The notes under the pieces are model-generated. The model made no database searches, was not told the DNA's origin, and saw only the letters and a program-made list of their open reading frames with translations. Of a DNA stretch of 64,000 nucleotides, positions 3 to 14,598 are shown in pieces. Every line of letters begins with the position of its first letter. Within the stretch, counting starts at the first letter, position 1. Source of the stretch: Alphaproteobacteria bacterium. Its GTDB lineage: Bacteria > Pseudomonadota > Alphaproteobacteria > Rhizobiales > Devosiaceae. The position numbers and the translations under genes were made by a program. The DNA lies in the NCBI GenBank assembly GCA_018818925.1, contig JAHJQZ010000159.1, positions 62,001 to 126,000 of the forward strand, given 5' to 3'.

Positions 3-1817
3 AATGCCTTGAGCGGCATGCGCACGACCCAGGACGGCCTCACCGTCCTGTCGCGCAACGTCGCCAATGCCGGCGCCAGCGGCTATCACCGCCAGAGCGT
101 CGTCATCAAGGACATGAATGGCGGCTCGAGCACCTATTCCAGTTTCGTCGGTGTCGAGCGCGCCTTCGTCTCATCGCTCGAACGCGCCTATGTGCGCGAA
201 GTCGGCGACATGGGCTATGCCGATGTGCGCAACACCTTCCTCGAGCGGCTGGAGGTCGCCTTCGGCAAGCCGGGCGACGCCAACTCGCTCGACACGCTTC
301 TGCAGGATTTCACCAATTCCATGCAGGCGCTGGCGGTCAGCCCCGAGGACTATGCCACCCGCGCCACCACCATCTCTTCGGCGCAGACGCTGGCCCAGGC
401 GCTCAACGGCCTGTCCGGCACCGTCCAGGAGCTGCGCCAGGAAACCGAAACGCAGATCGCCGCCGAGGTCGACACGCTCAACCAGAGCCTGCAATCGTTG
501 CGCGACATCAATGTCAGGCTGTCCGACTATTCGCTCGACGAGGCCTCGCGCCTCAGCGTGCTCGACGAACGCGACCGGCTGGTGGCGCGGGTATCCGAAA
601 TCGTCGACACCCAGGCCGTCTACCGCACCGATGGAACGGTGGCGCTGATGACCAAGTCCGGTCTCGGCCTGCTCGACCAGGGGGCGACCACTTTCACCTT
701 CGCACCGGCCGGTGCCCTCAGCGCCAATTCGCTCTACGCCATCGACGACGCCGAGAACGGCGTCGGCGTCCTGACGGCCTATACACCGTCCGGGTTGCGG
801 CTCGACGTGCTCGACCAGAAAATCGTCCAGTCCGGCCGGCTCGCCGCGCTCGTCGAGTTGCGCGATACCACGCTGGTGCAGACCCAGGCGCAGCTGGACA
901 GCATCGCCGCGGCGCTGGCCCAGGCACTCAATACCAATGAGACCGCGGGAACGGCGGTGACCGGTCCGCCGGACGGATTCGATATCGGCATGGCCGACAT
1001 CGCCAAGGGCAACGAGGTCTCGTTCAGCTACGTCCAGTCCGGCCAGAGCCGCGATGTCCGAATCGTTCGGGTCGACGACCCGTCCAAGCTGCCGATGGAC
1101 TACAGAACGCCGGGCGGCGAACGCGTCATCGGCGTCGATTTCTCAGGCGCCGCCGGCTCCGTCGCCGCCCAGCTCAACGCCGTGCTCGGACCGGGCATAA
1201 GTTTTGCCGACGACGGAACGACGCTGAGCATTCGCGACGACGGCGGCGTCAATTCCACGATCACTTCGGCCAGCAAGAGCACCAGCTCGACGGCGACGCA
1301 AGGGGCAGGGCTCGCGCTCAACCTGTTCACCGACCTCGGCGACCAGGCCTATACCGGCGCGCTCGATGGCGAACCGCAGGCGCGCGGCTTTGCGGCGCGC
1401 ATCACCGTCAATTCGGTCATCGCCAACGACAATTCCCTGCTGGTGCAGTATGATTCCGGCGGTACGCTCGGCGATCCGGCCCGCGTCGACTACATGCTCG
1501 ACCGCATGGAGACGGTCAATTTCCGCCCGGACAACCAGCAGCTCAAGGAGCTCGGCGGCTATTCGCTGTCCGGCGACCTCCAGAGCCTCGTCCAGCAGGT
1601 CATCAATTACCAGGGCGACATGATCGCCAACGCCAAGTCGGCGCTCGACACCCAGCAGATCGCCCTCGACGCGGTCGAGTTGCGCATGGATGCCGAATAC
1701 GGCGTCAGCATCGACGAGGAAATGGCGCGCCTCATGGAATTGCAGAACGCCTACGCCGCCAGCGCCCGCGTCGTTTCGATCGCCCAGGAGCTGATCGACG
1801 CATTGATGAACATTTAG
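3..1817 (+). CDS. flgK: Flagellar hook-associated protein FlgK (HAP1), 5' end outside window
   Basis: First junction protein between hook and filament, exported by the flagellar type III system. The reading frame is open from base 3 and begins NALSGMRTTQDGL, matching the FlgK N-terminal helix, so the true start lies upstream; an in-frame TTG at 9 is internal. The motif NVANAGASGYHRQ is the rod/hook-family N-terminal signature. The C-terminus (EEMARLMELQNAYAASARV, ending ELIDALMNI) is the classic FlgK ending. About 604 residues are visible, longer than enterobacterial FlgK, with a variable middle. flgL follows after 10 bases, so the two are co-transcribed. Confidence 0.93.
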   Translation, partial: NALSGMRTTQDGLTVLSRNVANAGASGYHRQSVVIKDMNGGSSTYSSFVGVERAFVSSLERAYVREVGDMGYADVRNTFLERLEVAFGKPGDANSLDTLLQDFTNSMQALAVSPEDYATRATTISSAQTLAQALNGLSGTVQELRQETETQIAAEVDTLNQSLQSLRDINVRLSDYSLDEASRLSVLDERDRLVARVSEIVDTQAVYRTDGTVALMTKSGLGLLDQGATTFTFAPAGALSANSLYAIDDAENGVGVLTAYTPSGLRLDVLDQKIVQSGRLAALVELRDTTLVQTQAQLDSIAAALAQALNTNETAGTAVTGPPDGFDIGMADIAKGNEVSFSYVQSGQSRDVRIVRVDDPSKLPMDYRTPGGERVIGVDFSGAAGSVAAQLNAVLGPGISFADDGTTLSIRDDGGVNSTITSASKSTSSTATQGAGLALNLFTDLGDQAYTGALDGEPQARGFAARITVNSVIANDNSLLVQYDSGGTLGDPARVDYMLDRMETVNFRPDNQQLKELGGYSLSGDLQSLVQQVINYQGDMIANAKSALDTQQIALDAVELRMDAEYGVSIDEEMARLMELQNAYAASARVVSIAQELIDALMNI

Positions 1818-1827
1818 GACACCGAAC

Positions 1828-3729
1828 ATGCAGATATCCAGATCGCTGTTTCCGGTTGGTGGCGCGTATAAATCGGTGCAATCTCTCAATCAGGTGCTGC
1901 AAAAACTTCAAGTGCAGCTTGCAACTCAGGAGAAGGCCGCCACCCTTTCCGAACTCGGCACGGACCGCGTGTTCGACCTGACGCTTCGCTCGCGGCTGTC
2001 GCGGCTCGAGGCCTTCGGCACCAATATCGACACAACGACATTGCGGCTCGATTTCCTCGACAACGCCGTGACGCGGCTCAACGAGATCGAAGGCGAGGTG
2101 CGCGGCGATCTCAGCGCCGGCGGCATCGGATCCGACGGCATCTCGCTGGCATCGGCGACACAGACAAGCTACGCCCGGCTCGACGAGGTGCTGGCCATCC
2201 TCAATTCCGACCTCAACGGCCGCCAGATGTTCGCCGGCAACCGGACCGATTCCCGTCCGGTGGTGAACACCGACCTGCTGCTCGACGGCGACGGCACTCA
2301 TGCGGGCCTCAAACAGCTCATTTCCGAGCGCAAGCGCGCCGACGCCGGCGGCCTGACGGCGCTCGGGGACATGACCAACGGGCATGGGCGCGTCGATATC
2401 GACCAGATCCAGCTCGGCGCCGCCATTCCGGGCGCCCTCAACGAAGTCGTCATCTCCGAATCCGCGACGCCGAACGGCCCGAGCGTGACCGGCGTCGCGA
2501 CGACATTGGCCAATCCGGCCTCGGTCACAGTGACGCCGGCTGGCGGTGCGCCGGCGCCGGCGACCGTGGCGTTTGCCGGCGGCGCCGATCTCATCGCCGA
2601 CGGCGACCAGCTCACCGTCAACGTCCAGCGCCCCGGTGGCCTTGTCGAGCCCTATACCTTTACGGCGGTGACGACGCTGAGCGTGCCGCCGGTGGCCGGC
2701 GAATTCGCGATCGTCGCCGGCGATGAAAATGCCACTGCGGCCAATTTCAACGCCGCCTTCGCCGATGTGTTCCAAGCCGATACCGTGACGGTGGCCGAGG
2801 ATGGCGCGCACGCCTTCGGCATAAAGCTCAACGGCATCAGCACCGATTCGAGCGATCTGACGGTAACGGCGCAAACCACGACGCAGCCGCATGCCCTGCA
2901 AATACGGGTCGACTCGCTGCCGCAGGAAGGGGAGACGATCACGGTCAACTACGCGCTGCCGGACGGCTCGACCGGCAGTTTCGAGATTGCTGCCGTGACG
3001 ACGACGCCAGCCCAGCGCGGTGAGTTCACCATCGGCGCCGATACCGATGCTACGGCAGCCAATATCGCCACCGCCATCGCAACCCAGTTCGACCATTTGC
3101 GCGACACGGACCTCGCCGCTGTCTCCGCCGACCTCGCCGCCGAGAGCATGATCGCCGCCAATGGCGAAACGCCGATGCGGGTCGTCGATCCCGGCACCGG
3201 CTTCGCCGACGCGGTGGCGATGGGTGTGGCCGACCCGGCGAACACCGTCATCTGGTATTCCGGCCAATCGACCACCGGCTCGGCCCGCCAGACCGCTTCG
3301 GCGCGGGTCGACGAGAGCACCACCGCCTATTACGGCGTGCTCGGCAACGAGCAGGGCATAGCCGAACTGGTGCGCGCCACCGCCGTCATGGCCGCCGAGA
3401 GCTTCTCGACCAGCGTCACCAGCGATTCCGACCGCTTCCAGGCACTGGCGCAGCGGCAGGTCGTGCGGCTTGCCGAAATGAACAACGGCACGAGCGGATC
3501 GATCGAGGTCATCGCCCTCGAACTCGGCTTGGCGCAGGCCACGGTCGGCTCGGCTTCCGAGCGGCACGCCACCTACGGCGCCCAGCTCGAGACCATGTTG
3601 AGCGAAATCGAATCGGTCGACATCAACGAAGTCGCCATGCAGCTCCTGGCGGTGCGCACCAATCTCGAAGCGAGCTACCAGACCATGGCGCGCCTGGCCG
3701 ACCTGCAGCTTGTCAACTTCATGAGCTAG
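1828..3729 (+). CDS. flgL: Flagellar hook-associated protein FlgL (HAP3), enlarged
   Basis: Second junction protein linking the FlgK ring to the filament. The N-terminal coiled segment (SLNQVLQKLQVQLATQEKA) and the C-terminal helix (LAVRTNLEASYQTMARLADLQ, then LVNFMS) are FlgL/flagellin-like. At 633 residues it is about twice the usual FlgL length. The extra region, roughly residues 190-450, is Thr/Ala/Val-rich beta sequence with two related modules that begin GDQLTVNV and GETITVNY, resembling Flagellin_IN-type modules of the two flagellins nearby. AGGACA precedes the ATG. A strong hairpin terminator follows the stop. Confidence 0.88.
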   Translation: MQISRSLFPVGGAYKSVQSLNQVLQKLQVQLATQEKAATLSELGTDRVFDLTLRSRLSRLEAFGTNIDTTTLRLDFLDNAVTRLNEIEGEVRGDLSAGGIGSDGISLASATQTSYARLDEVLAILNSDLNGRQMFAGNRTDSRPVVNTDLLLDGDGTHAGLKQLISERKRADAGGLTALGDMTNGHGRVDIDQIQLGAAIPGALNEVVISESATPNGPSVTGVATTLANPASVTVTPAGGAPAPATVAFAGGADLIADGDQLTVNVQRPGGLVEPYTFTAVTTLSVPPVAGEFAIVAGDENATAANFNAAFADVFQADTVTVAEDGAHAFGIKLNGISTDSSDLTVTAQTTTQPHALQIRVDSLPQEGETITVNYALPDGSTGSFEIAAVTTTPAQRGEFTIGADTDATAANIATAIATQFDHLRDTDLAAVSADLAAESMIAANGETPMRVVDPGTGFADAVAMGVADPANTVIWYSGQSTTGSARQTASARVDESTTAYYGVLGNEQGIAELVRATAVMAAESFSTSVTSDSDRFQALAQRQVVRLAEMNNGTSGSIEVIALELGLAQATVGSASERHATYGAQLETMLSEIESVDINEVAMQLLAVRTNLEASYQTMARLADLQLVNFMS

Positions 3730-3753
3730 CGGCCCAAAACTGACCGAAAACGA

Positions 3754-3778
3754 AAAAGGCCCGCCATGCGGGCCTTTT
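3754..3778. terminator. Bidirectional intrinsic terminator between flgL and flaF
   Basis: An 11-bp perfect stem (AAAAGGCCCGC / GCGGGCCTTTT) with a CAT loop sits between the convergent flgL and flaF genes. Flanking A and T runs make it functional on both strands. Confidence 0.85.
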
Positions 3779-3801
3779 GCTTGTCTTTGGCCATGTACGG
3801 C

Positions 3802-4191
3802 TTAGCCGGCATCGCCGCCCGGCGGCGCCATGGCGCGCAATCCGGCGGCCAGTTCGCGATTGATGTTGATCAGCGCGTCGAGTTTGCGCGCCTCCGGGTT
3901 GCGCAACAGCTCAAGCTGGCGGTTCATGATGAACAGCCCGAGATTGGCGACGTTCTGCCGAATCTGTTTCGGCAGCGGATTATCGTCGCGGGTCACGGAG
4001 GTCATGAACACCGTCCATAGCCGCCGGTTGAACAGCATGGCGGCTTCCAGGTCGGCCTGGGCATCGTCCCAGTTGTCGCGGATTCGCTGGAAATGCGCAG
4101 CCGACTTGGCCAGCAGGCTGGATTCAAGCTGACGCGGAGTCGCCGTTTGCTTGGAGACCTTGTTATAGGCGTTCAGCGCTTGGTTTTGCAT
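3802..4191 (-). CDS. flaF: Flagellar biosynthesis regulator FlaF
   Basis: FlaF-family protein of 129 residues, found only in alphaproteobacteria. In Caulobacter FlaF is needed for flagellin synthesis and secretion and works against FlbT. The N-terminus (NAYNKVSKQTATPRQLES) and the RRLWTVFMTSV segment are family hallmarks. Its start lies 29 bases inside the 3' end of flbT, so the two are translationally coupled. GGAGG stands about 13 bases before the ATG. It is the last gene of the leftward flagellin-flbT-flaF group. Confidence 0.93.
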   Translation of the reverse strand: MQNQALNAYNKVSKQTATPRQLESSLLAKSAAHFQRIRDNWDDAQADLEAAMLFNRRLWTVFMTSVTRDDNPLPKQIRQNVANLGLFIMNRQLELLRNPEARKLDALININRELAAGLRAMAPPGGDAG

Positions 4192-4567
4192 TCGCTAGAA
4201 GGTCCTCCTCGTAGCGTATCAACTTGCCCGCAGCCTTCAGCGCTTTGTAGAGTTTGCCGGTTAATATCTCGTTATTGATTTCGTCGATCAGCGGAAACAT
4301 CGACGGGGCAGCGGCCAGAATGTCGTCCACGAGGCGGAAATACTGCTGTTGCAGCTTGCGCGTGTCGTCCTCGAGGTACATGAGCTGCACCGCCAGATAG
4401 ATGCGCTTGGCAGGCGAATCCGCCGTCTCCGCCGTAAGGATGTCCTTTTCCCTGAGGATCGGGGCACGACCGTCGATGAACAGCCGCGCCCGCTGATCGG
4501 AATTGGTGACCACGCAGTTCCCGATGATAAGCCGTTCGCCCGGCTTGAGCTCCACCTTGAGTGACAT
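4163..4567 (-). CDS. flbT: Flagellin translation/stability regulator FlbT
   Basis: FlbT, 134 residues, acts post-transcriptionally on flagellin mRNA; in Caulobacter it binds the flagellin 5' leader and promotes decay when the hook is unfinished. Family features are MSLKVELKPGERLIIGN at the start and the ILREKDILTAE and RIYLAVQLMYL segments. GGAG lies about 9 bases before the ATG. It sits 157 bases downstream of the 796-residue flagellin and overlaps flaF by 29 bases. The pairing with its target flagellin genes supports the assignment. Confidence 0.95.
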   Translation of the reverse strand: MSLKVELKPGERLIIGNCVVTNSDQRARLFIDGRAPILREKDILTAETADSPAKRIYLAVQLMYLEDDTRKLQQQYFRLVDDILAAAPSMFPLIDEINNEILTGKLYKALKAAGKLIRYEEDLLANAKPSAERL

Positions 4568-4724
4568 GGTGATGTGCTCCGACGCGTTGTTCTTGAGGCG
4601 CTACTCTGCCAAGCAATTGTGCGTTGCTTTTCTGCAAAGGGAAAGGGGCACGGCACGCCCGGATTCGGTTTCATGCGCAAAACGCCAGACAAAACCGGTC
4701 GACGCGCATGGCGAGGTCGAGAAA

Positions 4725-7115
4725 TCAGAACAGACGCAACACGTTCTGATCCGCCTCGGAGGCCAGCGAAAGAGCCGTGGTCGACAATTGCTGCCGGGTT
4801 TGCAGTGCCAAAAGATTGGCGGCCTCTTCATTGGTGTCGGCAAGCGTCAGGTTGGCGGCGCCTGTTTCGAGCGTGTTGATCATGCGCTTGGTGAAGTCCT
4901 GGCGCGATTCGACGACATTGAGGTTGGCGCCGAAGGTCGAGGCCTGGGCGCGCAGGTGGTCCGTCGCCGCCGTGAGGCTGTCGAGCGTCGCCTCGACATT
5001 GGCGTCAGACTGGAAATAGCCCTGGGCCGCCATGGACAGTCCGAGACCGGCATAGCTGAAGTTGACGCCGGAAATCGTGAGCTTTGACGAGGCATCCTCG
5101 TTGAAAATCACCGAAAGGTCATTGCCGTCGAGCAGGTTGACACCATTGAAGCTGGCATCGCGCGCGATGTCCGAGATCTGCCGCAGGATGACGTTGAACT
5201 GGCTTTCGAGCTCGGCGCGCACGGTGCTGTCGACCGTGGTGGGCTGGATTGGCGTGGTGGAATTGACCAGACCGAATGCCTCTGCGACCGCATCGTCGGG
5301 ATTTGCCAGCGAATCGTTGGAGGTGATCGTCACCGTGTCGCCGCCGGTGGTCGCTTCGATGGTGAGGGCACCGGTATCGGCATCGATGGTGGCAATGCCG
5401 CCGGCCAGATTGTCGAGCGCCTGCTCGAGTTCGGCGAACGAGCTGATCTGATTGACGCCATAGCCGAAGGTCAGGGACAAAAGGGTGTTGGTGCCCACCT
5501 GGATGTTGAGCTGGTCGCCGGAAACGATCCCCGTGGTCGCGGTCAGGAGATTGTTGGTTTCCCCGGCGGTCAGCCCGAAGCTCGTCAGCGCCGTCGGCGT
5601 GCCGCCGATGACGATCGAATCCTGGGCCTTGTCGGTCGTTATGTTGATCTCGCCGCGCGAATCGACCGAAGCCGCGCCGCCCGACAGGCTTGCCAGGGCG
5701 GCGTTCAGCTCGGCGATCGACTTGACCTCGCCGGTGCCGGTGCCGAACCGCACCGTCAGGGTGGTGTGCGTCGCGATCTTGATGTCGATCGTGTCGCCCT
5801 GCTGCACGGCGCCCTGGGTCAGAAGATTGCCGGGGTTGTAGGTCGACTGATTGACATTGCCGCTGTCGCCAACCGCGCCGGCATCCGAGCCGAGCAGGTT
5901 GAAGGCGGCGAGCGTGCCGTCGCCGGCGCCCTGGGAGAAGCGCAGGCCGGTGCCGAAATCGACGGAATTGGCGATCGAGGTGACGACATTGTTGCCAACC
6001 ACCGATGCCGAGACCGTCGCGGACAGCCCGTCGATGGCGGTGGCCAGTTCGGCGAGCGACTTCGGCGCCGATGCGCCGGTGCCGAAGGTGATGGTGCCGA
6101 GCGCAGTATAGATGCTGCCCGAACCCGTGGCGACGGTCAGCGTGTCGCTAGCGGCGGCCAGGGAATCGAACGCTGCGTTGCGCGTGATCAGCCGGTCGGC
6201 GGCCTGGCCGGCGATGGCCGTGCCGGTTGCCGCAAAACCGAGATCTGTCAGAATGCTGGCATCCAGCGCCGCGCCGCTGTCCCGGCCGGTGACGCGAATG
6301 GAGCCGACGCTGGCGTCTTCGGCCGTCAAGGTCAGGTTGCCCGAGCCGGCCCCGCCCGCGATGACGGAGCTTGTGCCACCGCCAAGCTGGTCGAGGGCGG
6401 TGTTGATGGCCGTGCGGAAGTTGCCGAGCGTGGCATCGAGCTGGACGCTCAGGGTGGCGTTCGTCGCATCGCCGCCGACCGTGGTGGTTCCCGTGCCCGC
6501 CGCGACAAAGCTCACCGTCAAGGTGTCAATGCCGGAACCGGTGTCGATCTCGATCGTGAACGTGTCGTCGATCTGTAGGGAGCCGGCCGCATTGAGAAGA
6601 ATCGCGTCGCCACCATAGGCCGTTGCACCGCCCAGCGTCACCGCGCCATCGGCCCGGTCGGCGCCGACCGTGAAGGTTGATGTCGCAAAGGCGTCGGCGG
6701 TGAGACCAGCCGGCACGGCCACAGTGTTGTCGCCGTTGACCACGGACAGCGCCTGCGGATTGTAGGTTGCGCTCGTCGAGCCGACGACTTCGTTCTGGAT
6801 CACCCGTCCGGGCGTCTGCAGGGCCTGGCGCGCCGTCGCCTGCGCCGTCTCGATGAGCTGGGTGATCGCGGTCACGCCATTGTTGGCAGTCTCGAGCGTC
6901 TGGGTGGCGCTGTTGACCGAATCGAGCAATCGTCCGAGATCGCCGGCGCGGGCGCTCAGGGAGGAAGCGGTGAAAAAGTTGGTGGCGTTGTCGAGGGCGG
7001 AATTGACCTTGAGCCCGGTCGCGAGTCTTTCCTGGGTCTTGCCGAGCAGGCCCGCCGTTTTCTGCAGGCTCAACAGGTTGGCACGAACCGCCTTGGATAG
7101 AGTTACATCAGCCAT
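4725..7115 (-). CDS. Large flagellin (796 aa)
   Basis: Filament subunit. The start MADVTLSKAVRANLL at 7115 is preferred over one seven codons upstream because it aligns with the neighbouring flagellin and has GGAGGG about 11 bases upstream. The first ~160 residues (RLATGLKVNSALDNATNFFT) and last ~150 (RQDFTKRMINTLETGAANLT, ending QNVLRLF) form the conserved D0/D1 core. Between them lie about four beta-rich modules of 80-110 residues, the last two opening GDTIDIKIATHTTLTVRFG and GDQLNIQVGTNTLLSLTFG. Typical flagellins are 270-500 residues. A CtrA-like box lies at 7158-7172. Confidence 0.93.
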   Translation of the reverse strand: MADVTLSKAVRANLLSLQKTAGLLGKTQERLATGLKVNSALDNATNFFTASSLSARAGDLGRLLDSVNSATQTLETANNGVTAITQLIETAQATARQALQTPGRVIQNEVVGSTSATYNPQALSVVNGDNTVAVPAGLTADAFATSTFTVGADRADGAVTLGGATAYGGDAILLNAAGSLQIDDTFTIEIDTGSGIDTLTVSFVAAGTGTTTVGGDATNATLSVQLDATLGNFRTAINTALDQLGGGTSSVIAGGAGSGNLTLTAEDASVGSIRVTGRDSGAALDASILTDLGFAATGTAIAGQAADRLITRNAAFDSLAAASDTLTVATGSGSIYTALGTITFGTGASAPKSLAELATAIDGLSATVSASVVGNNVVTSIANSVDFGTGLRFSQGAGDGTLAAFNLLGSDAGAVGDSGNVNQSTYNPGNLLTQGAVQQGDTIDIKIATHTTLTVRFGTGTGEVKSIAELNAALASLSGGAASVDSRGEINITTDKAQDSIVIGGTPTALTSFGLTAGETNNLLTATTGIVSGDQLNIQVGTNTLLSLTFGYGVNQISSFAELEQALDNLAGGIATIDADTGALTIEATTGGDTVTITSNDSLANPDDAVAEAFGLVNSTTPIQPTTVDSTVRAELESQFNVILRQISDIARDASFNGVNLLDGNDLSVIFNEDASSKLTISGVNFSYAGLGLSMAAQGYFQSDANVEATLDSLTAATDHLRAQASTFGANLNVVESRQDFTKRMINTLETGAANLTLADTNEEAANLLALQTRQQLSTTALSLASEADQNVLRLF

Positions 7116-7157
7116 TTGACCCGGACCCTCCGACACACCAAGCGCCAGTCGCGCTTA

Positions 7158-7172
7158 TTAAGAAATTGGTAA
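7158..7172. promoter_or_regulatory. CtrA-like box upstream of the 796-aa flagellin
   Basis: TTAA-GAAATTG-GTAA, one mismatch from the CtrA consensus TTAA-N7-TTAA, 43-57 bases upstream of the flagellin start. Regulation by CtrA is inferred from the motif only. Confidence 0.45.
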
Positions 7173-7243
7173 CTTCTCGTGTGACGTGATTCGCGGGAAC
7201 TGGAAAAGGGGTTTGGGACGAAGGAGGGGAGTGCTCCCCAGAA

Positions 7244-7275
7244 AAGAAAAAAGGCGGGCCGAAGCCCGCCTTTTT
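7244..7275. terminator. Intrinsic terminator after the 1010-aa flagellin
   Basis: A 7-bp stem GGCGGGC/GCCCGCC (7253-7259 and 7264-7270). Read on the minus strand it has a TTCG tetraloop and is followed by a TTTTTTC tract. It directly follows the stop of the larger flagellin and separates the two flagellin transcripts. Confidence 0.85.
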
Positions 7276-7296
7276 CGTGTTTGACTTCTAGAACGA

Positions 7297-10200
7297 CTAG
7301 AACAGACGCAGCACGTTCTGGTCGGACTGGGAGGCCAGCGACAGGGCCGTCGAACTGAGCTGCTGGCGGGTCTGCAGAGCGAGCAGGTTGGCCGCTTCCT
7401 CGTTGGTATCGGCCAGCGTCAGGTTGGCGCCGCCGGTCTCGAGGGTGTTGATCATCTTCTTGGTGAAGTCCTGACGGGTCTCCACCACGGAGAGGTTCGA
7501 ACCGAAGCTTGTCGCCTGCGACCGGAGCGAACTGATCGCGCTGTCAAGAGAGGTCAGCACGTCGTTTATGTTGCCATCGGTCTGGAACGATCCGGACGCG
7601 ACGCGCGACAGGTTGAGACCCGAGGCGTTGAAGGTCACGCCCCTGATGTCGAGCTTGGATGACCCGTCTTCGTTGAAGATAACGTTGAGGTCGTCGCCGG
7701 CCAGCAGGTTGACGCCGTTGAACGAAGCATCGGCGGAGAGCTGATTGATCTGCGAGAGCAGGTCATTGTACTGCTGTTCCAGCGAAGCCCGCTGGGTGCT
7801 GTCCGTCGTCGTCGCCGACACGGCAACCGTCGAGTTGGTCAAGCCGAAGGATTCGGCCACGGCATCGGTGCTCGAGGTAACGGTAATGTTCTCTGAGCCA
7901 TTGGTGGCCGAGATCGTGATCGCGCCCGTCGTCGCATCGATGCTGGCCGTGCCGCCGCCAAGATTGCCGAGGGCCGTTTCCAGTTCGCTGAAGGTGTTCA
8001 CCTGCCCAGTGCCCGTGCCGAAAGTCACGGTCAGCGGACCATTGGTGCCGACCTGGATGGTCAGGGTGTCGCCGGCGGCAATATTGGTGTCGTCGATGAG
8101 CGTGCTGGTTTCCCCGGCTTCGAGACCGAAACTCGACAAGGCCGAGTCGGTGCCGCCGATGGTGATGCTCGTGCCGGCCTTGTCGGCGGTGATGTTGATT
8201 TCACCGTCGCTGTTGACCGAAGCGGCGCCGCCTGCGAGCGACTGCAGCTTGGTATTGAGTTCGCCGAGCGTCGACACCTGGTTGGTGCCGGTGCCGAACG
8301 TCACCGTCAGGGTCGTCGAAGAGCCGACCTTGATGTTGATCGTCTCACCCTGATGAACCTTGCTCTGGGTCAGAAGATTGGTCGGAGTGGCAACCGTCGC
8401 GATGGTCGGCGCGGTGGTTGAATCCGGAGTTTCGCCGAAGGCCGTCAGCGTGTCGGCGCTGTCGGTCGTGAAGACAAAGCTCGAGTCGGCGTCATTCTCA
8501 TTGGCATTGGTCAGGGTGATGGCCGCCGTGCCCGTGGCCGTGCCGGTCGCGTTGACATTGGCAAGGTTGTTGAGGGCGGAGATCAGCCCGGCCTTGGTGT
8601 TGATCTGACCGGCGCCGGCGCCGAAGACGATCTGGGTCTGGGCGGAACTGCCGACCGAGATGTTCAGCGTTGCTCCGGCCGCTGCCAGGGCCTGATAGGC
8701 CGAGTTGCGGCTGAAGAACCTGTCGGTGGTCGTGCCGTCCTGGTATTCCGCACCGACTGCTTCGAGGTTGAGATCGGCAACATTGGTCCCTGTCACGTCA
8801 CGAATGCGGATGGAATCCGCGCTCGATGCCGTCGAGGAGTTGATGGTCAAGGCACCCGTGGCCGCGGCCGAGACGCTGACGCCTTCTGCGTCGAGCGTGG
8901 TGTCGAGAGCCGATGCCAGTTCGGCCAGCGTGCGTGTAACGCCGATCGACAGGGAGTTCGTTCCCTGAACGGCGGCGCCGGAGGCGTTGAAGGTGACCGT
9001 GTGGTCGACGCCATCGACCGTGACGATGAAGCTGTCATTGGCGGCGATGCCGAGAGACGCCAGGGTGCGATCGTCTGGACTGTAGGAGGCTTCGAGACCG
9101 AGAGCCGCAACCGGCGCGGCACCGGCAAAGGCGACATCCTCGCCAGCGATGCCGGTGATGTCGATGGCGGTCGTGCCGTTGGCGACGGCGTTGACGCCGG
9201 TGAAGGCGTTAAGGGTCGACACCAATTGGGCGAGCGTGCCCACCTGGTTGGCGGCGGCACCAAAGGTGACGACTTCCGCACCGCCCGTGTCGGTCGTGAC
9301 GGTCAGCGTGCTGCCGGCGCCCGCAAGCACCTGCAGGTCGGCGTTCCTGGTGAACAGGTAGTCGCCGTTGACGCCGCCGGTCACGGCGGTTTCACCGGTG
9401 ACATCGCCGGCCGCCAGGCCGAGTTTGGTCAGCGTGGCACCGGCTTCGCCGTCCTGCACCCGGATGGAATTGGTCGTGGCGTTGGACGTAAAGGTGATCG
9501 GACCATCGGCGGCACGAGAGACGGTGATGCCGGTTGCGGTATTGGCGCTGAACAAGGTCGCCAAAGCACTGGCGAAAGTATCGATCGTGGCGTCGACTTC
9601 GATGTCGAGAGTATCGACTCCTTGAGTGACGGCAGCGGCGTTGGCGGCAAGGAAATTGACAGTCTTGGTGCTGCCGTTGACGGTGAAGACCAACTGGTCG
9701 TTGGCGGCGAGCGAACCGGCGCCGGCGGCGCTCAACAGAGTACCGTCGGTAACGGAGTCGGCGGATGCGAAGGCGGCGATGGTGGCGTCGGCGGCGATGG
9801 CGTCGGTCGTGATGAACGCCGTCTGTTCACTGCCGGAGGCCGTGATCGCTACCGCTGTGTCGGCCGTGCCCGACGCCAGGGCATAGGTCGCGGCGGCATC
9901 GGCGGTGATGACGCCGGCGGCCGTGCCGGTTGCGACGCTGTTGTCGCCGGTGACCTGGGCCAGTTCCTTGGGATTGAAGGTCGCGGCGGTGTCGCCGACG
10001 ATCTTGTTCTGCGTGGTCTGGCCGGCGGTCTGCAGCGACTGGCGAGCGGTCGCCTGGGCGCTTTCGACAAGCTTGGTGATCGCGGTCAGGCCATTGTTCG
10101 CCGCTTCGATCGTTTGCGTCGCGTTGCCGACGGCGTCGAGAAGACGACCGAGATCGCCGGCGCGGCTATTGAGGGACGAAGAGGTGAAGAAGTTGGTCGG

Positions 10201-10329
10201 GTTGTCCAGAGCGGAATTGACCTTGAGGCCGGTAGCGAGACGCTCCTGCGTCTTACCGAGAGAAGCGGCGGTGCTCTGGAGATTGAGGAGGTTCGATCGA
10301 ACCGCCTTCGAGAGAGTGATATCGGCCAT
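7297..10329 (-). CDS. Very large flagellin (1010 aa)
   Basis: Filament subunit, paralogue of the flagellin downstream. The first ~165 residues (MADITLSKAVRSNLLNLQS, RLATGLKVNSALDNPTNFFT) and last ~150 (RQDFTKKMINTLETGGANL, ending QNVLRLF) are nearly the same as in the 796-aa protein. The central ~680 residues contain about six modules of 80-105 residues with the pattern G-D/E-T/S-hydrophobic, a TFG/VTFG turn, LAEL-like helix and a closing FGLE/LGL. The last two modules match those of the paralogue, so the size difference is about two modules. AGGAGT lies 6 bases before the ATG. Its own terminator follows. Confidence 0.93.
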   Translation of the reverse strand: MADITLSKAVRSNLLNLQSTAASLGKTQERLATGLKVNSALDNPTNFFTSSSLNSRAGDLGRLLDAVGNATQTIEAANNGLTAITKLVESAQATARQSLQTAGQTTQNKIVGDTAATFNPKELAQVTGDNSVATGTAAGVITADAAATYALASGTADTAVAITASGSEQTAFITTDAIAADATIAAFASADSVTDGTLLSAAGAGSLAANDQLVFTVNGSTKTVNFLAANAAAVTQGVDTLDIEVDATIDTFASALATLFSANTATGITVSRAADGPITFTSNATTNSIRVQDGEAGATLTKLGLAAGDVTGETAVTGGVNGDYLFTRNADLQVLAGAGSTLTVTTDTGGAEVVTFGAAANQVGTLAQLVSTLNAFTGVNAVANGTTAIDITGIAGEDVAFAGAAPVAALGLEASYSPDDRTLASLGIAANDSFIVTVDGVDHTVTFNASGAAVQGTNSLSIGVTRTLAELASALDTTLDAEGVSVSAAATGALTINSSTASSADSIRIRDVTGTNVADLNLEAVGAEYQDGTTTDRFFSRNSAYQALAAAGATLNISVGSSAQTQIVFGAGAGQINTKAGLISALNNLANVNATGTATGTAAITLTNANENDADSSFVFTTDSADTLTAFGETPDSTTAPTIATVATPTNLLTQSKVHQGETINIKVGSSTTLTVTFGTGTNQVSTLGELNTKLQSLAGGAASVNSDGEINITADKAGTSITIGGTDSALSSFGLEAGETSTLIDDTNIAAGDTLTIQVGTNGPLTVTFGTGTGQVNTFSELETALGNLGGGTASIDATTGAITISATNGSENITVTSSTDAVAESFGLTNSTVAVSATTTDSTQRASLEQQYNDLLSQINQLSADASFNGVNLLAGDDLNVIFNEDGSSKLDIRGVTFNASGLNLSRVASGSFQTDGNINDVLTSLDSAISSLRSQATSFGSNLSVVETRQDFTKKMINTLETGGANLTLADTNEEAANLLALQTRQQLSSTALSLASQSDQNVLRLF

Positions 10330-10408
10330 TTAGAACTCCTATTCTGGGAACCGATTACTAGACACGCCTCTTCCTGAGGGTGTTGTGCCGAAGTATCCCT
10401 GCGAGCCT

Positions 10409-10423
10409 TTGAAAATTGGTTAA
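10409..10423. promoter_or_regulatory. Possible CtrA-like box upstream of the 1010-aa flagellin
   Basis: TTGA-AAATTGG-TTAA, one mismatch from TTAA-N7-TTAA, 80-94 bases upstream of the flagellin start. The AAATTGGT(T)AA part resembles the box at 7158. The rest of the 264-base interval 10330-10593 shows no recognisable gene; a weak palindrome-like stretch GCGGCAGAAGCGCCGG starts near 10450. Confidence 0.35.
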
Positions 10424-10593
10424 AAACATTGGCAAAAATTGTGGCGTGTTAAGCGGCAGAAGCGCCGGGAATCCGGCGTATCGCGGGCAAGCGGCAATGT
10501 CGGGATGTGGCACGACGGTGCCAATGGTTAACGAATGCGCGCGCCCCACCGCGTGAGTCGGGCACGGGATCCGGTCAGCGTTGTCGGCCGGTC

Positions 10594-11112
10594 TCAGGCG
10601 ATCTTTTCGATCGCGTTGAGCCAGTCGGGATTCGCCGCGGCGGGCAGGGATAGCGGCGAGCCGCTCTGGACACGATCATAGGCGGCGAGTTGTTGGGCCT
10701 CGACCGGATGATTGTCATCCTTTGCCGGAACGAATGGCGCGGCGTCGCCGGAATCCGCCCGGTCGTCGGCGGCGCTCGGACTAGACTCATCGCCCAGGAT
10801 TTCGCCGGGCGGGTCTGCAAGCGCGAGCGCCGCGAACTGATCCGGGCTTGTCGACGGCTTGAAATCCTCGCTGATCAGCGAGGCATCGAACAAGGTTTGC
10901 GGCGGCAGGGACGGATCCGTGCCCGGCGGGCGGGGGCTGGGTTCGGCCTTGGCGGCCGGATCGCGGGTGGCAGACTGTTTCTGTTCCGAGCTGCCGGCAT
11001 TTGCCTTTTCGGACGATTCGACGGGCCGCGTGTCAGGGCGCGGTGCGACAGGGCGCACGACCAATGGCGGCGTGACGACGGCAACGGGCTCAGGCGCGAA
11101 TATCAGGCTCAT
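10594..11112 (-). CDS. Pro/Ala/Ser-rich hypothetical protein in flagellar cluster
   Basis: 172 residues; no family recognised. The composition is low-complexity (many P, A, S, D), so most of it is probably disordered: the N-terminus has VAVVTPPLVVRPVAPRP, the middle is acidic, and only the last ~30 residues (AYDRVQSGS, PDWLNAIEKIA) look foldable. No signal peptide or membrane segment is visible. GAGG lies 8 bases before the ATG. It sits between flgN-like and flagellin genes on the same strand, with its own CtrA-like box, so a flagellar role (export substrate, chaperone or length control) is possible but unproven. Confidence 0.65.
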   Translation of the reverse strand: MSLIFAPEPVAVVTPPLVVRPVAPRPDTRPVESSEKANAGSSEQKQSATRDPAAKAEPSPRPPGTDPSLPPQTLFDASLISEDFKPSTSPDQFAALALADPPGEILGDESSPSAADDRADSGDAAPFVPAKDDNHPVEAQQLAAYDRVQSGSPLSLPAAANPDWLNAIEKIA

Positions 11113-11213
11113 GGGACGACCTCACGTCCATTTGAAGCAGCCTGCATCATGGCACGCCCGTATTTCCACCGCCTTTCCGTGATGCTTCCAAGTTTAGTAA
11201 AATCAAGAATGTG

Positions 11214-11228
11214 GTAAAGAATTCGTAA
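11214..11228. promoter_or_regulatory. GTAA-N7-GTAA box upstream of the Pro/Ala-rich protein
   Basis: GTAA-AGAATTC-GTAA, a two-mismatch variant of the CtrA consensus centred on GAATTC, about 100 bases upstream of the gene starting at 11112. The 16-mer GGTAAAGAATTCGTAA occurs again, inverted, at 58183-58198. Confidence 0.35.
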
Positions 11229-11323
11229 GACTCGCGCGCTTTGAATCCTTTCAAAGCAACCTTCCGGGCTAGACTCGGCCGGTCGGGAAATGACTTGCGA
11301 AAACCCGGCTGGTTCTTTTGCAG

Positions 11324-12104: not shown

Positions 12105-13234
12105 CACATCACCTCGATTTCGGCCTGGAGGGCGCCGGCAGCCTTGATGGCCTGCAATATGCCGATCAGGTCGCGCGGTGAGATGCCGAGGGCGTTGAGG
12201 CCGTCGACGAGCTGTTGCAGCGTCACCGATTCCGGAATGGTGGCGAGGTTGCTGCCGGTCGAGGATACCTGGACGTCGGAACGAGGCACCTGGGTGGTGT
12301 CGCCCTGGGCGAGGGCGTTGGGCTGGCTGACCTGCGGCGTCTCGGCGATGGTGACGGTCAGGTTGGCCTGGGCCACGGCGACGGTCGAGACGCGCACGTC
12401 GCGCCCCATGACAATGATGCCGGAGTTCTCGTCGATGACGATCTTGGCCGGCTGGTCGGTCTGTACCACCAATTGCTCGATATCGGTCAAGAGGTCGACG
12501 ATGCCGCCCTCGAAGGTCGGTGGCAGATAGAGGCGGACGGTCGACGGATTCTCGGCGACCGCCGTCGGCTCGCCCATGAAATCGTTGATGCCGAGCGCGA
12601 CGCGGCGGGCTGTCGTCAGGTCGGGATTGCGCAGCGACAGGCGCAGCGTCTTCAGGCTCGCCATGTCGAAACCGATCTCGCGTTCGACCAGCCCGCCCGA
12701 CGAGATGCGTCCCGTCGTCGGCACGCCGGACGTGATGCTGGCCGCGTCGGCCTCGGCCTTGAAGCCGTTGATCGTCACCGGACCCTGGGCGATGGCATAG
12801 ATTTCGCCATCGGCGCCGAGCAGGGGGGTGACGAGCAGGGTGCCGCCCTGCAGGCTGTCGGCGTCGCCGAGCGCCGAGACATTGACGTCGATGCGCGATC
12901 CCTGCGCCGCGAAGGGCGGCAGGTTGGCCGTGACCATGACGGCGGCGACGTTGGCGGTGCGAACCGTCTCGCCGCGCGTGTTGACCCCGAGCCGTTCGAG
13001 CATGGCCTGAAGGCTCTGGCGGGTGAACGGCGCGTTGTTGAGGCTGTCGCCGGTGCCGTTGAGGCCAACGATGAGGCCGTAGCCGACCAATTGGTTCTCG
13101 CGGATGCCCTCGATGTCGACGATGTCCTTGATTCGGGCGCTGCCCGCCATGGCGGCCGACGGCGCCAGAACGACGAGGACGACGGCCAGTACCGCCATCA
13201 GTCGTTGGAACGTCGCTGGAAATGTGCTCGGCAT
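12104..13234 (-). CDS. flgI: Flagellar P-ring protein FlgI
   Basis: Periplasmic P-ring subunit that surrounds the rod in the peptidoglycan layer. The start at 13234 (MPSTFPATFQRLMAVLAV) gives 376 residues, a clean Sec signal peptide ending around PSAAMAGS, and AAAGGGGA upstream; a start 18 codons earlier lacks these. Family motifs: ARIKDIVDIEGIRENQLVGY, YGLIVGLNGTGDSLNN, and the C-terminal QQLVDGLNALGISPRDLIGI. The gene heads a leftward operon flgI-flgJ-flgN and diverges from fliX across a region with a CtrA box. Confidence 0.97.
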   Translation of the reverse strand: MPSTFPATFQRLMAVLAVVLVVLAPSAAMAGSARIKDIVDIEGIRENQLVGYGLIVGLNGTGDSLNNAPFTRQSLQAMLERLGVNTRGETVRTANVAAVMVTANLPPFAAQGSRIDVNVSALGDADSLQGGTLLVTPLLGADGEIYAIAQGPVTINGFKAEADAASITSGVPTTGRISSGGLVEREIGFDMASLKTLRLSLRNPDLTTARRVALGINDFMGEPTAVAENPSTVRLYLPPTFEGGIVDLLTDIEQLVVQTDQPAKIVIDENSGIIVMGRDVRVSTVAVAQANLTVTIAETPQVSQPNALAQGDTTQVPRSDVQVSSTGSNLATIPESVTLQQLVDGLNALGISPRDLIGILQAIKAAGALQAEIEVM

Positions 13235-13412
13235 GGTCTCGGTCCCCTTTGCCTTCCGTCCCCACGGAATGCGGTCTGTCGACATCAATGCCAGAAGCGT
13301 GCCAAATTGCGCCGCAGGGTTGGGCGACCGGGTAATCGTCTGAATTCAAACGAGAAGCGCCGCCAGACCGGACCGGGGCCGCGTCGTCGAGACTCTGTCG
13401 GAGGCAAGGACA

Positions 13413-13428
13413 TGCAGAATTTGCCGGG
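13413..13428. promoter_or_regulatory. Inverted half of the CCCGGCAGA palindrome (flgI side)
   Basis: TGCAGAATTTGCCGGG; its right half, TGCCGGG, is the inverted counterpart of CCCGGCA in the palindrome at 13453. The two flank the CtrA box on opposite sides. A binding site for a flagellar activator is inferred. Confidence 0.4.
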
Positions 13429-13431
13429 TTG

Positions 13432-13446
13432 TTAAGGCTCTGTTAA
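13432..13446. promoter_or_regulatory. CtrA box between flgI and fliX
   Basis: A perfect TTAA-GGCTCTG-TTAA, matching the CtrA consensus TTAA-N7-TTAA, in the 273-base divergent region between flgI (-) and fliX (+). Binding is inferred from the match and the flagellar context. Confidence 0.65.
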
Positions 13447-13452
13447 CGCCGG

Positions 13453-13469
13453 CCCGGCAGATATTGCCG
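13453..13469. promoter_or_regulatory. CCCGGCAGA palindrome between flgI and fliX
   Basis: CCCGGCAGATATTGCCG contains a perfect inverted repeat CGGCA-N5-TGCCG. Near-identical copies occur at 21591 and 29750, always beside a CtrA-type box in a divergent flagellar promoter. It resembles the class of ftr elements bound by FlbD in Caulobacter; that identity is my inference. Confidence 0.6.
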
Positions 13470-13507
13470 AAACCAATTGTTAACCATCGGGGGTGCCGTA
13501 GCGCCAG

Positions 13508-13927
13508 ATGAAGATCGAAGGGCCGTATCGCCGGCCGGCGGTCGGCGGCAAATCCGCTGCCGGCGGCGCCGGTGCGGGGCGTCCGGCCTTCACGATCGGC
13601 GAGGCGCCGGTCGCCGGCCGTGCCGACAGCGTCTACGCCGCCAACGCTCCGACGGAAATCGACGCCATTCTGGCGCTTCAGGCCGTCGACGACCCGCTGC
13701 AGGGCCGGCGCAAGCGGATCAGGCGCGGCCATGCGCTGCTCGACAATCTCGAGGCGCTCAAGCTCGAGGTTCTGACCGGAACGGTGAGCGAAGCCAGACT
13801 CGACAGGCTGCTGTTCCTGGTGCGTCAGGCCAAGGTCCGCGAGGCCCCGGAACTTGACGACTTGATTGAGGAAATCGAGCTAAGAGTATTGGTAGAGCTC
13901 GCTAAACTCGGCCGATACGTCAGCTGA
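13508..13927 (+). CDS. fliX: Flagellar assembly regulator FliX
   Basis: FliX, 139 residues, is the alphaproteobacterial trans-acting factor that couples basal-body assembly to the activator FlbD and so to late flagellar gene expression. Family signatures are the N-terminal MKIEGP, the central EIDAILALQ segment, and the conserved C-terminal helical region (GHALLDNLEALKLEVLTG through ELDDLIEEIELRVLVELAKL). The Gly/Ala-rich stretch at residues 13-40 is variable in the family. It diverges from flgI; the shared promoter region carries a CtrA box and the palindrome. The ribosome-binding site is weak. Confidence 0.95.
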   Translation: MKIEGPYRRPAVGGKSAAGGAGAGRPAFTIGEAPVAGRADSVYAANAPTEIDAILALQAVDDPLQGRRKRIRRGHALLDNLEALKLEVLTGTVSEARLDRLLFLVRQAKVREAPELDDLIEEIELRVLVELAKLGRYVS

Positions 13928-14003
13928 AATTCTGACCTTATTCGTGGTGACCCATCCGTGTTAGGCACGCTGGCGATCCGCGCTTGCCCGGATGCGGCCT
14001 CGA

Positions 14004-14015
14004 CTCTATATAGAG
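14004..14015. promoter_or_regulatory. 12-bp palindrome upstream of dksA
   Basis: CTCTATATAGAG is a perfect palindrome 30 bases before the dksA ATG, in the expected promoter or operator zone. Function unknown. Confidence 0.3.
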
Positions 14016-14044
14016 CCGTCTTTGTCTCAAGGAGTGAGTCACCA

Positions 14045-14464
14045 ATGGGCGCTGAACTGGACCTGTCGGAATATCGCCCCTCGGACGATGAGCCGTTCAT
14101 GAATCCGCGGCAGCGTGAGTACTTCCGGCGCAAGCTCGAAACCTGGAAGGACGAGATCCTGCGCGAAAGCCGGGAAACCCTCGACAACCTTCAGGAAGAA
14201 AGCCAGAACCATCCTGATCTCGCCGACCGCGCCTCTTCCGAGAGCGACCGGGCGCTGGAACTGAGGACGCGTGACCGCCAGCGCAAGCTTATCGCCAAGA
14301 TCGACGCGGCGCTCAAGCGCATCGAGGACGGCACCTATGGCTATTGCGAAGAGACCGGCGACCCGATCGGGGTCGCAAGGCTCGACGCCCGCCCCATCGC
14401 AACGCTGTCGCTCGAGGCCCAGGAGATGCATGAGCGCCGCGAGAAGGTCTATCGCGACGAGTGA
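14045..14464 (+). CDS. dksA: RNA polymerase-binding transcription factor DksA
   Basis: 139-residue DksA, which binds the RNA polymerase secondary channel and, with ppGpp, resets transcription during starvation. The start MGAELDLSEYRPSDDEP has AAGGAG 10 bases upstream. The coiled-coil region is FRRKLETWKDEILRESRET to DRQRKLIAKIDAALKRIEDG. The zinc-finger region keeps only one of the four cysteines of E. coli DksA (C101, in YGYCEETGDPIG); the others are Thr, Ser and Ala. Reduced-cysteine DksA is known in alphaproteobacteria. It follows fliX and ends in an intrinsic terminator. Confidence 0.95.
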   Translation: MGAELDLSEYRPSDDEPFMNPRQREYFRRKLETWKDEILRESRETLDNLQEESQNHPDLADRASSESDRALELRTRDRQRKLIAKIDAALKRIEDGTYGYCEETGDPIGVARLDARPIATLSLEAQEMHERREKVYRDE

Positions 14465-14576
14465 GCTTTATGGCGCGCAATTGCGCGTCAAGATGCATCC
14501 GAACGCCCGAATCGCTTTGCGCGCCGGGCATAGCGGGGCCTGAACGCCGCGCCGCTGTCGTCTTTACCACCGCCGT

Positions 14577-14598
14577 ACCCGCCTTGCGGCGGGTTTTT
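14577..14598 (+). terminator. Intrinsic terminator after dksA
   Basis: Stem ACCCGCC/GGCGGGT (14577-14583 and 14588-14594) with a TTGC loop, followed by TTTTT. Its T-tract touches the stop codon of the convergent ABC-F gene. Confidence 0.85.

Follow-up and report, generated by a model that had tools for sequence, protein, structure and literature searches.

A doubled two-module unit in the outer region of one of two neighbouring flagellins from an alphaproteobacterium of the Devosiaceae

Results

Module layout of flagellins A and B

The 64,000-nucleotide stretch analysed here (the window; contig JAHJQZ010000159.1, positions 62,001 to 126,000, assembly GCA_018818925.1, an alphaproteobacterium of the Devosiaceae) encodes two adjacent flagellins, and a unit of two outer modules that occurs once in the shorter is doubled in the longer. 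Flagellin A (796 residues; 4725–7115, minus strand) carries four outer modules and flagellin B (1010 residues; 7297–10329, minus strand) six. Flagellin_N and Flagellin_C are found at the ends of both proteins, with scores (50.5 and 37.7 bits for A, 51.4 and 37.4 bits for B) above the curated cut-offs of 26.6 and 23 bits, respectively, and the two flagellins of these lengths reported in a first-pass annotation of the window were thereby recovered. The length of A is counted from the ATG at 7115; a GTG seven codons upstream would give 803 residues.

The modules were delimited with a profile grown from our own module cuts and from relatives, according to which they span 97–135 residues. Between the N and C domains, A is arranged as alpha-beta-gamma1-gamma2 and B as alpha-beta-alpha-beta-gamma1-gamma2, in agreement with the four versus six modules proposed earlier. 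In the following, modules are numbered A1–A4 and B1–B6; L-numbers denote stretches of relatives, except for L037 (contig C4 of the window's own genome), and G-numbers denote genomes. All ten modules lie on the minus strand. In A, the alpha module A1 (residues 171–305; 6201–6605; 17 bits) forms a clade with B1, B3 and the first module of L077 (support 98/92), and the beta module A2 (residues 311–421; 5853–6185; 31 bits) is grouped with B2, B4 and the second module of L077 (92/83). These are followed by gamma1 (A3, residues 429–526; 5538–5831; 66 bits) and gamma2 (A4, residues 522–627; 5235–5552; 53 bits). The extra unit of B consists of an alpha module (B1, residues 199–316; 9382–9735; 34 bits) and a beta module (B2, residues 327–423; 9061–9351; 41 bits), and is succeeded by the second alpha module (B3, residues 420–535; 8725–9072; 38 bits), the second beta module (B4, residues 540–644; 8398–8712; 40 bits), gamma1 (B5, residues 649–747; 8089–8385; 71 bits) and gamma2 (B6, residues 743–841; 7807–8103; 59 bits).

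Internal similarity, the absence of which had been named as the outcome that would speak against repeated modules, is clearly present. Self-comparison of B's middle region in ungapped windows of 45 residues gave eight diagonals (scoring 133, 97, 92, 83, 80, 68, 63 and 61), all of which exceed 58, the maximum of 20 shuffles of B; the best self-matches of A scored 105, 54 and 49 (shuffles were run on B only). The two beta modules of B match at an offset of 213 with a score of 92, and the two alpha modules at offsets of 216–221 with ungapped scores of 48–50, below the shuffle maximum, and a gapped Z of 10.9. Pairwise module alignment, suggested as a check in the first-pass annotation and run here as a gapped comparison against 100 shuffles, gave high Z values within each module type (10.9–35.8). 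The last two modules are indeed shared by the two proteins (A3–B5, 64.9% identity, Z 35.8; A4–B6, 57.4%, Z 27.2), and B1–B3 (Z 10.9) and B2–B4 (Z 13.6) are mutual best matches among the ten modules of the window. Some alpha-beta pairs display no pairwise similarity (B1–B2, Z 0.5; B1–B4, Z 0.2; A1–B4, Z −1.0), and the assignment of all ten modules to one family therefore rests on profile and predicted fold. Once cut, the ten can be aligned on one pattern.

The 214-residue surplus of B fits one alpha-beta unit, the unit offset within B being 213–221 residues, so that the earlier estimate of a difference of about two modules holds and can be specified as one alpha-beta pair. The two units of B are only 41% identical in protein and ~54–55% identical in DNA. 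BLAST aligns A to B in two overlapping registers (A 32–796 on B 265–1010, and A 1–756 on B 1–790), as expected if B is internally duplicated. A search for long exact DNA repeats within A or B returned only three self-matches of 51–53 columns in the two genes, plus short simple repeats.

The ends of A and B had been described as nearly identical, which they are not: identity is 76.8% over 112 N-terminal residues and 68.2% over 176 C-terminal residues. At the DNA level the corresponding values are 75% and 65%, and the synonymous divergence (dS) is about 1.0 and 1.4, which marks A and B as old paralogues. Recent gene conversion of the ends was rejected on the basis of these DNA identities and dS values.

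Module counts among relatives

With B as query, matches were obtained in 50 of 61 genomes, the window's own included, and the best 80 of 559 relatives in a wider scan are, by title, mostly from Hyphomicrobiales. Among 162 different flagellins with both ends present, 10, 59, 73, 13 and 7 carry 0, 1, 2, 3 and 4 detectable modules, respectively; these are minimum numbers, because in some flagellins of 750 residues the profile detects few modules. A single one of the 162 exceeds 1000 residues, a 1032-residue flagellin (L057). It is encoded beside an 802-residue one in a genome of the same family (G021; L057, 5773–8868, plus strand) and has three modules by profile; the remaining outer parts may be of another type.

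The middle of B was also compared with 397 genomes of the order, 17 of which, including its own, matched at E 1e-10. The other 16 (G038 among them) were examined via fetched stretches; in those from genomes other than G038, the 11 both-ended flagellin frames have three or four modules each. In cut flagellin frames the number reaches four, or five with inclusion of a 6-bit match in L181, and a flagellin split over two frames (L187) shows five modules, of which one scores 9 bits. A second six-module flagellin was found neither among the 162 both-ended flagellins nor among the 11 further both-ended frames, the maximum being four. The alpha-beta-gamma1-gamma2 layout of A recurs in L175 (794 residues) and L077 (751 residues), both from other families, and in L176, which is the same 751-residue protein as L077, judging partly by module positions.

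The module tree shows tandem module duplications of their own in the flagellins of L078, L090 and L043. The flagellin of L078 (5998–8193, plus strand) has three modules with very short branches (0.02–0.21), in a region with ambiguous residues in the record; these modules appear to be a recent repeat expansion.

Origin of the additional alpha-beta unit

The alpha-beta unit, doubled in B, is single in A and in relatives of two other families, which supports the module gain or loss put forward in the first-pass annotation. The best explanation as a whole, and a probable one, is that A and B represent paralogues among the filament flagellins of the order Hyphomicrobiales and that B became longer through in-place tandem duplication of one alpha-beta pair. 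A and B share the D0/D1 core together with gamma1 and gamma2, the outer modules nearest the C-terminal core; in this scheme, one alpha-beta pair in B would have been duplicated beside the original pair and have diverged thereafter. Through the shared core both proteins could enter the same filament, in which the extra modules of B would extend the surface arm and render the filament wider or more sheath-like, and the cell could adjust the A:B ratio by means of separate transcription units. In a tree of 54 modules, the alpha, beta, gamma1 and gamma2 modules of A, B and L077 cluster according to their place in the protein. The inner unit of B (B3–B4) adjoins gamma1, the position that the single unit has in the relatives, and gives alignment scores of 282 and 268 with the L077 and L175 units; the outer unit scores lower (211 and 215). 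On parsimony, gain in B is clearly likelier than loss, because a single gain requires fewer steps than separate losses in A, L077 and L175.

Several observations weigh against this scheme. Trees of the alpha-beta units are star-like: neither of the two concatenated trees resolves gain versus loss, the B units appear as sisters at 27/0 in one of them, and in the other analysis the tree that keeps them together is not the best one and is neither favoured nor rejected (approximately unbiased test, p-AU 0.175). The 54-module tree places B3 and B4 each beside L077 and not beside B1 and B2. With 41% identity, the B units have diverged further than the gamma modules have between A and B (57–65%), and the duplication may therefore be older than the separation of A from B, A having lost a unit later. 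The predicted structure of full-length B is poor (predicted local distance difference test, pLDDT, 70.3; predicted template modelling score, pTM, 0.41), most of module 4 and residues 135–195 lying below a pLDDT of 50, and no promoter was identified when the sequence upstream of A was inspected. Part of this evidence would suit an ancestral six-module layout, from which one alpha-beta unit would have been lost separately in A and in each four-module relative through inter-repeat recombination: B3 and B4 group with the single unit of L077 while the unit of A lies outside (forks 98/84 and 97/74), and the greater divergence of the B units points the same way. Such a history would need at least three independent losses (A, L077 and L175), and none of the 162 plus 11 both-ended flagellins has more than four detectable modules, although some cut or split ones reach five; with weak tree support in addition, we consider it unlikely. 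Acquisition of the outer unit by recombination from another flagellar gene, instead of duplication in place, would account for the conflicting positions of L077, which is placed with L083 and other flagellins in the core tree and with A and B in the module tree. The modules also seem mobile between genes, those in FlgE of relatives being up to 69% identical to flagellin modules. No donor was found, however, and B1–B3 and B2–B4 are each other's best matches within the window, which makes such a transfer quite improbable. Finally, the draft state of the genome (3.18 Mb in 177 contigs) raises the matter of an assembly artefact, which was rejected as next to impossible because units ~54–55% identical in DNA are far too diverged for misassembly.

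Predicted fold of the modules

The gamma1-gamma2 pair of B was modelled by AlphaFold with 30 aligned module pairs, giving a confident model (pLDDT 89.5, pTM 0.65) in which B5 and B6 are each a confident alpha/beta domain and their strands and helices succeed one another in the same order. In this model the gamma modules are continuous alpha/beta domains in series and not nested halves. The earlier label of beta modules is accordingly incomplete. Structure prediction, another of the checks suggested, was of use for the gamma pair and less so for full-length B, in which the model is acceptable for the core and for modules 1, 3, 5 and 6 and in part for module 2, with module 4 modelled at low confidence. 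The core of the B model has the D0/D1 helical fold of solved flagellins (Z up to 17.9 over 214 residues).

In a structural search with the gamma pair, flagellar axial proteins account for 19 of the 20 best rows, with Z values of 7.0 for FlgK, 6.6 for FlgE2, 5.9 and lower for FliD and about 5 for Vibrio flagellins. As all of these lie below 8, they speak for a shared arrangement and are not proof of kinship. Foldseek alone gave no match at E ≤ 0.001, and a sequence search of the module against solved structures returned only a designed protein (E 0.48). Flagellin_IN (PF07196) was matched by 9 of the 30 aligned module pairs at E up to 1 (best 9.9e-7), the gamma1-gamma2 pair of B and full-length A and B not being among the hits at that threshold; its cut-off of 22.7 bits is exceeded in module-bearing frames of relatives (44 bits in L187, 23 bits in the FlgE of L178). 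DUF1522 was matched by 3 of the 30 pairs at E up to 1, and the same Pfam scan also gave scattered unrelated families, for example LEA_2 in one pair at 2.9e-6.

Genomic context of the flagellin pair

A lies downstream of B on the same strand, with FlbT (flagellin regulator; 4163–4567, minus strand; PF07378, E 1e-41) and FlaF (flagellin assembly regulator; 3802–4191, minus strand; PF07309, E 1.4e-33) beyond it. These are flanked by FlgK (hook-associated protein 1; 9–1817, plus strand; PF22638, E 3.3e-42) and a 633-residue FlgL-like hook-filament junction protein with a doubled outer domain (1828–3729, plus strand; FlgL models below their cut-offs), and the FlgI and FliX genes are located on the other side of the flagellin pair. 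With FlgK, the FlgL-like protein, FlaF, FlbT, FlgI and FliX all close by, the neighbourhood is a flagellar one. Directly after B, between B and A, a hairpin of 13 pairs followed by a T run (7247–7276, minus strand) resembles an intrinsic terminator, and A is therefore probably transcribed separately from B; terminator-like sites in 3700–11300 number 10 versus 6.7 expected, the hairpin after B having the longest stem. The NCBIfam model PRK12688 (NF009330; 752 residues) aligns with A over residues 1–795 (E 2.1e-82), and its cut-off of 614 bits is reached by neither A (277.7 bits) nor B (330.4 bits).

Related modules in other flagellar proteins

A second flagellar locus in the same genome (L037) encodes a 623-residue flagellin of another type (12441–14312, minus strand), near which a sigma factor, FlgE, FlgK and an FlgL-like protein are encoded. 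The sigma factor (14450–15331, minus strand) has regions 2 and 4, and the layout of this locus resembles that described for the RpoE6 cluster of Azospirillum brasilense (PMC12826043). The second-system flagellin contains a tandem duplication of ~300 bases (gene bases 559–856 versus 868–1171; 82% nucleotide identity, 73 of 100 residues) that is less diverged than the duplication in B. The single-module profile detects three modules in it (21.2, 20.0 and 11.7 bits; best shuffle 5.6) in a small search of 151 sequences, while a genome-wide search with the module-pair alignment recovered no proteins other than A and B (E up to 10).

In the FlgL-like protein of the window, the tandem inserts score 96 against each other, compared with a maximum of 60 in 500 shuffles. 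The module itself was not detectable in FlgK or the FlgL-like protein of the window (best 6.1 and 6.2 bits versus 6.5 in shuffles of other proteins). Alignment of 12 FlgL proteins places extra domains at different sites: the window has one of its own, another is common to L077, L083 and L098, and a further one to L063 and L065. The insert shared by L077 (7654–9444), L083 (2831–4621) and L098 (9403–11175; all minus strand) matches the module profile with E values between 2e-11 and 8e-10 when 12 sequences are searched, and with strong composition bias.

FlgL-like proteins in 24 genomes of the same family fall into length classes of about 485–500 and 610–660 residues. FlgL and flagellin lengths were compared in these 24 of 37 same-family genomes, the 13 lacking a complete flagellin or FlgL span being dropped. 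The correlation is rho 0.35 (p 0.095) by genome and rho 0.71 (p 0.005) by genus means, and a comparison of 5 versus 9 genera gave p 0.021 (one-sided), or 0.053 without the genus of the window. As these statistics ignore kinship, it is only suggestive that FlgL length tracks flagellin length.

Four module-bearing frames of relatives are the hook protein FlgE by Pfam and NCBIfam, the FlgE models being below and the FlgEFG subfamily model above cut-off. They comprise a 1032-residue FlgE with five modules at 26–62 bits (L178, 5207–8302, minus strand), a 670-residue one with two (L180, 1674–3683, plus strand), a 671-residue one with two, one of these at 8 bits (L189, 1646–3658, minus strand), and a 671-residue one with one (L190, 2405–4417, plus strand). 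The best score in 200 shuffles, 40 for each of five frames without flagellin ends, was 6.5 bits. The fifth of these frames, 622 residues long and cut by the stretch edge (L187, 2–1867, minus strand), has four modules, three Flagellin_IN stretches and a weak FlgL-type match. Modules 2–4 of the L178 FlgE are 84–94% identical to each other, near-identical copies that need checking given 16 ambiguous residues in the frame, and they share 64–69% identity with one flagellin module in L183, a stretch from a different genome within the genus, compared with 65% for A3–B5; L189, L190 and L183 are from single-contig genomes. A literature search limited to open-licence papers found nothing on modules shared by FlgE and flagellin, although the Pfam name "Flagellin hook IN motif" shows that a wider motif is known from both. 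Taken together, these matches raise the possibility, which we put forward tentatively, that one family of outer modules, including the three in the second-system flagellin, two of which would be recent duplicates, could be freely reused throughout the external flagellum of Hyphomicrobiales, multiplying in tandem and crossing between hook, junction and filament genes so that the parts can thicken together.

Discussion

A thick or decorated filament, as suggested in the first-pass annotation, is plausible here by analogy, the models being the giant flagellins already described (PMC6248924) and the thick subpolar flagellum found in Bradyrhizobium (PMC4823718). The modules might instead be without effect on filament width, with B as a minor flagellin or with modules that act in adhesion, phage escape or antigenic variation, and the structure and function of outer domains are described as not conserved between bacteria (PMC8931119). 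Since published giant flagellins give filaments of at least 30 nm (PMC6248924), and flagellins of 68 kDa form the thick subpolar filament of Bradyrhizobium diazoefficiens, beside thinner lateral ones of 34 kDa (PMC4823718), we regard this as somewhat unlikely. In a search of open-licence literature no published description of this flagellin pair was found, and a search for Geovibrio flagellum structures returned nothing useful. The pair represents a natural experiment, with two flagellins in one cell that have related cores and four versus six outer modules.

Among alphaproteobacteria, B. diazoefficiens with its thick-filament FliC1–4 (PMC4823718) and the window's genome are alike in that each has several flagellins as well as a second flagellar locus. 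Bradyrhizobium records also contribute related flagellins to the best 80 of 559 relatives, and those of 747–767 residues, among the 45 longest matches listed, have only one or two modules by profile. The large flagellins of PRK12688 are like A, which aligns end to end and scores below the cut-off. The screw-like filament of Sinorhizobium meliloti (PDB 7sn9; PMC8931119), which matches the C-terminal core of B, likewise consists of an alphaproteobacterial flagellin whose surface domain makes inter-subunit contacts; unlike A and B, that flagellin has one outer domain in 395 residues, and the parts of the report that describe it mention no module repeats. The modules also resemble the outer domains of FliD, FlgK and FlgE in the structural rows, with Z values of at most 7.0, and some module pairs match Flagellin_IN (PF07196), the gamma1-gamma2 pair of B not being one of them.

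Giant flagellins are known in many phyla, including Alphaproteobacteria, and filaments of at least 30 nm were shown in two gammaproteobacteria that possess them (PMC6248924). By the length of more than 1000 residues used in that study, B (1010 residues) is giant and A (796 residues) is not; B also shows central tandem duplication (modules 1–2 versus 3–4, Z 10.9 and 13.6). Internal domain duplication followed by a further insert was deduced there, and two of its questions are touched by the present analysis: whether tandem outer repeats fold in series or as split, nested halves, for which our model favours the former, and whether other flagellar parts are correspondingly large, on which the modules in FlgE and FlgL of relatives bear. 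The giant flagellins of Bermanella marisrubri and Oleibacter marinus, as described in PMC6248924, are like B in exceeding 1000 residues and in having a centre grown by tandem duplication, of which shorter relatives have one copy. They differ in belonging to Gammaproteobacteria, in being the single predicted flagellin and in that the duplicated "DE", compared here by its description, is one unit, whereas the present case concerns an alphaproteobacterium in which two modules are doubled together and a shorter paralogue is encoded alongside. The A/B pair extends the known route of internal duplication to giant flagellins with an example from Alphaproteobacteria in which the doubled unit comprises two modules.

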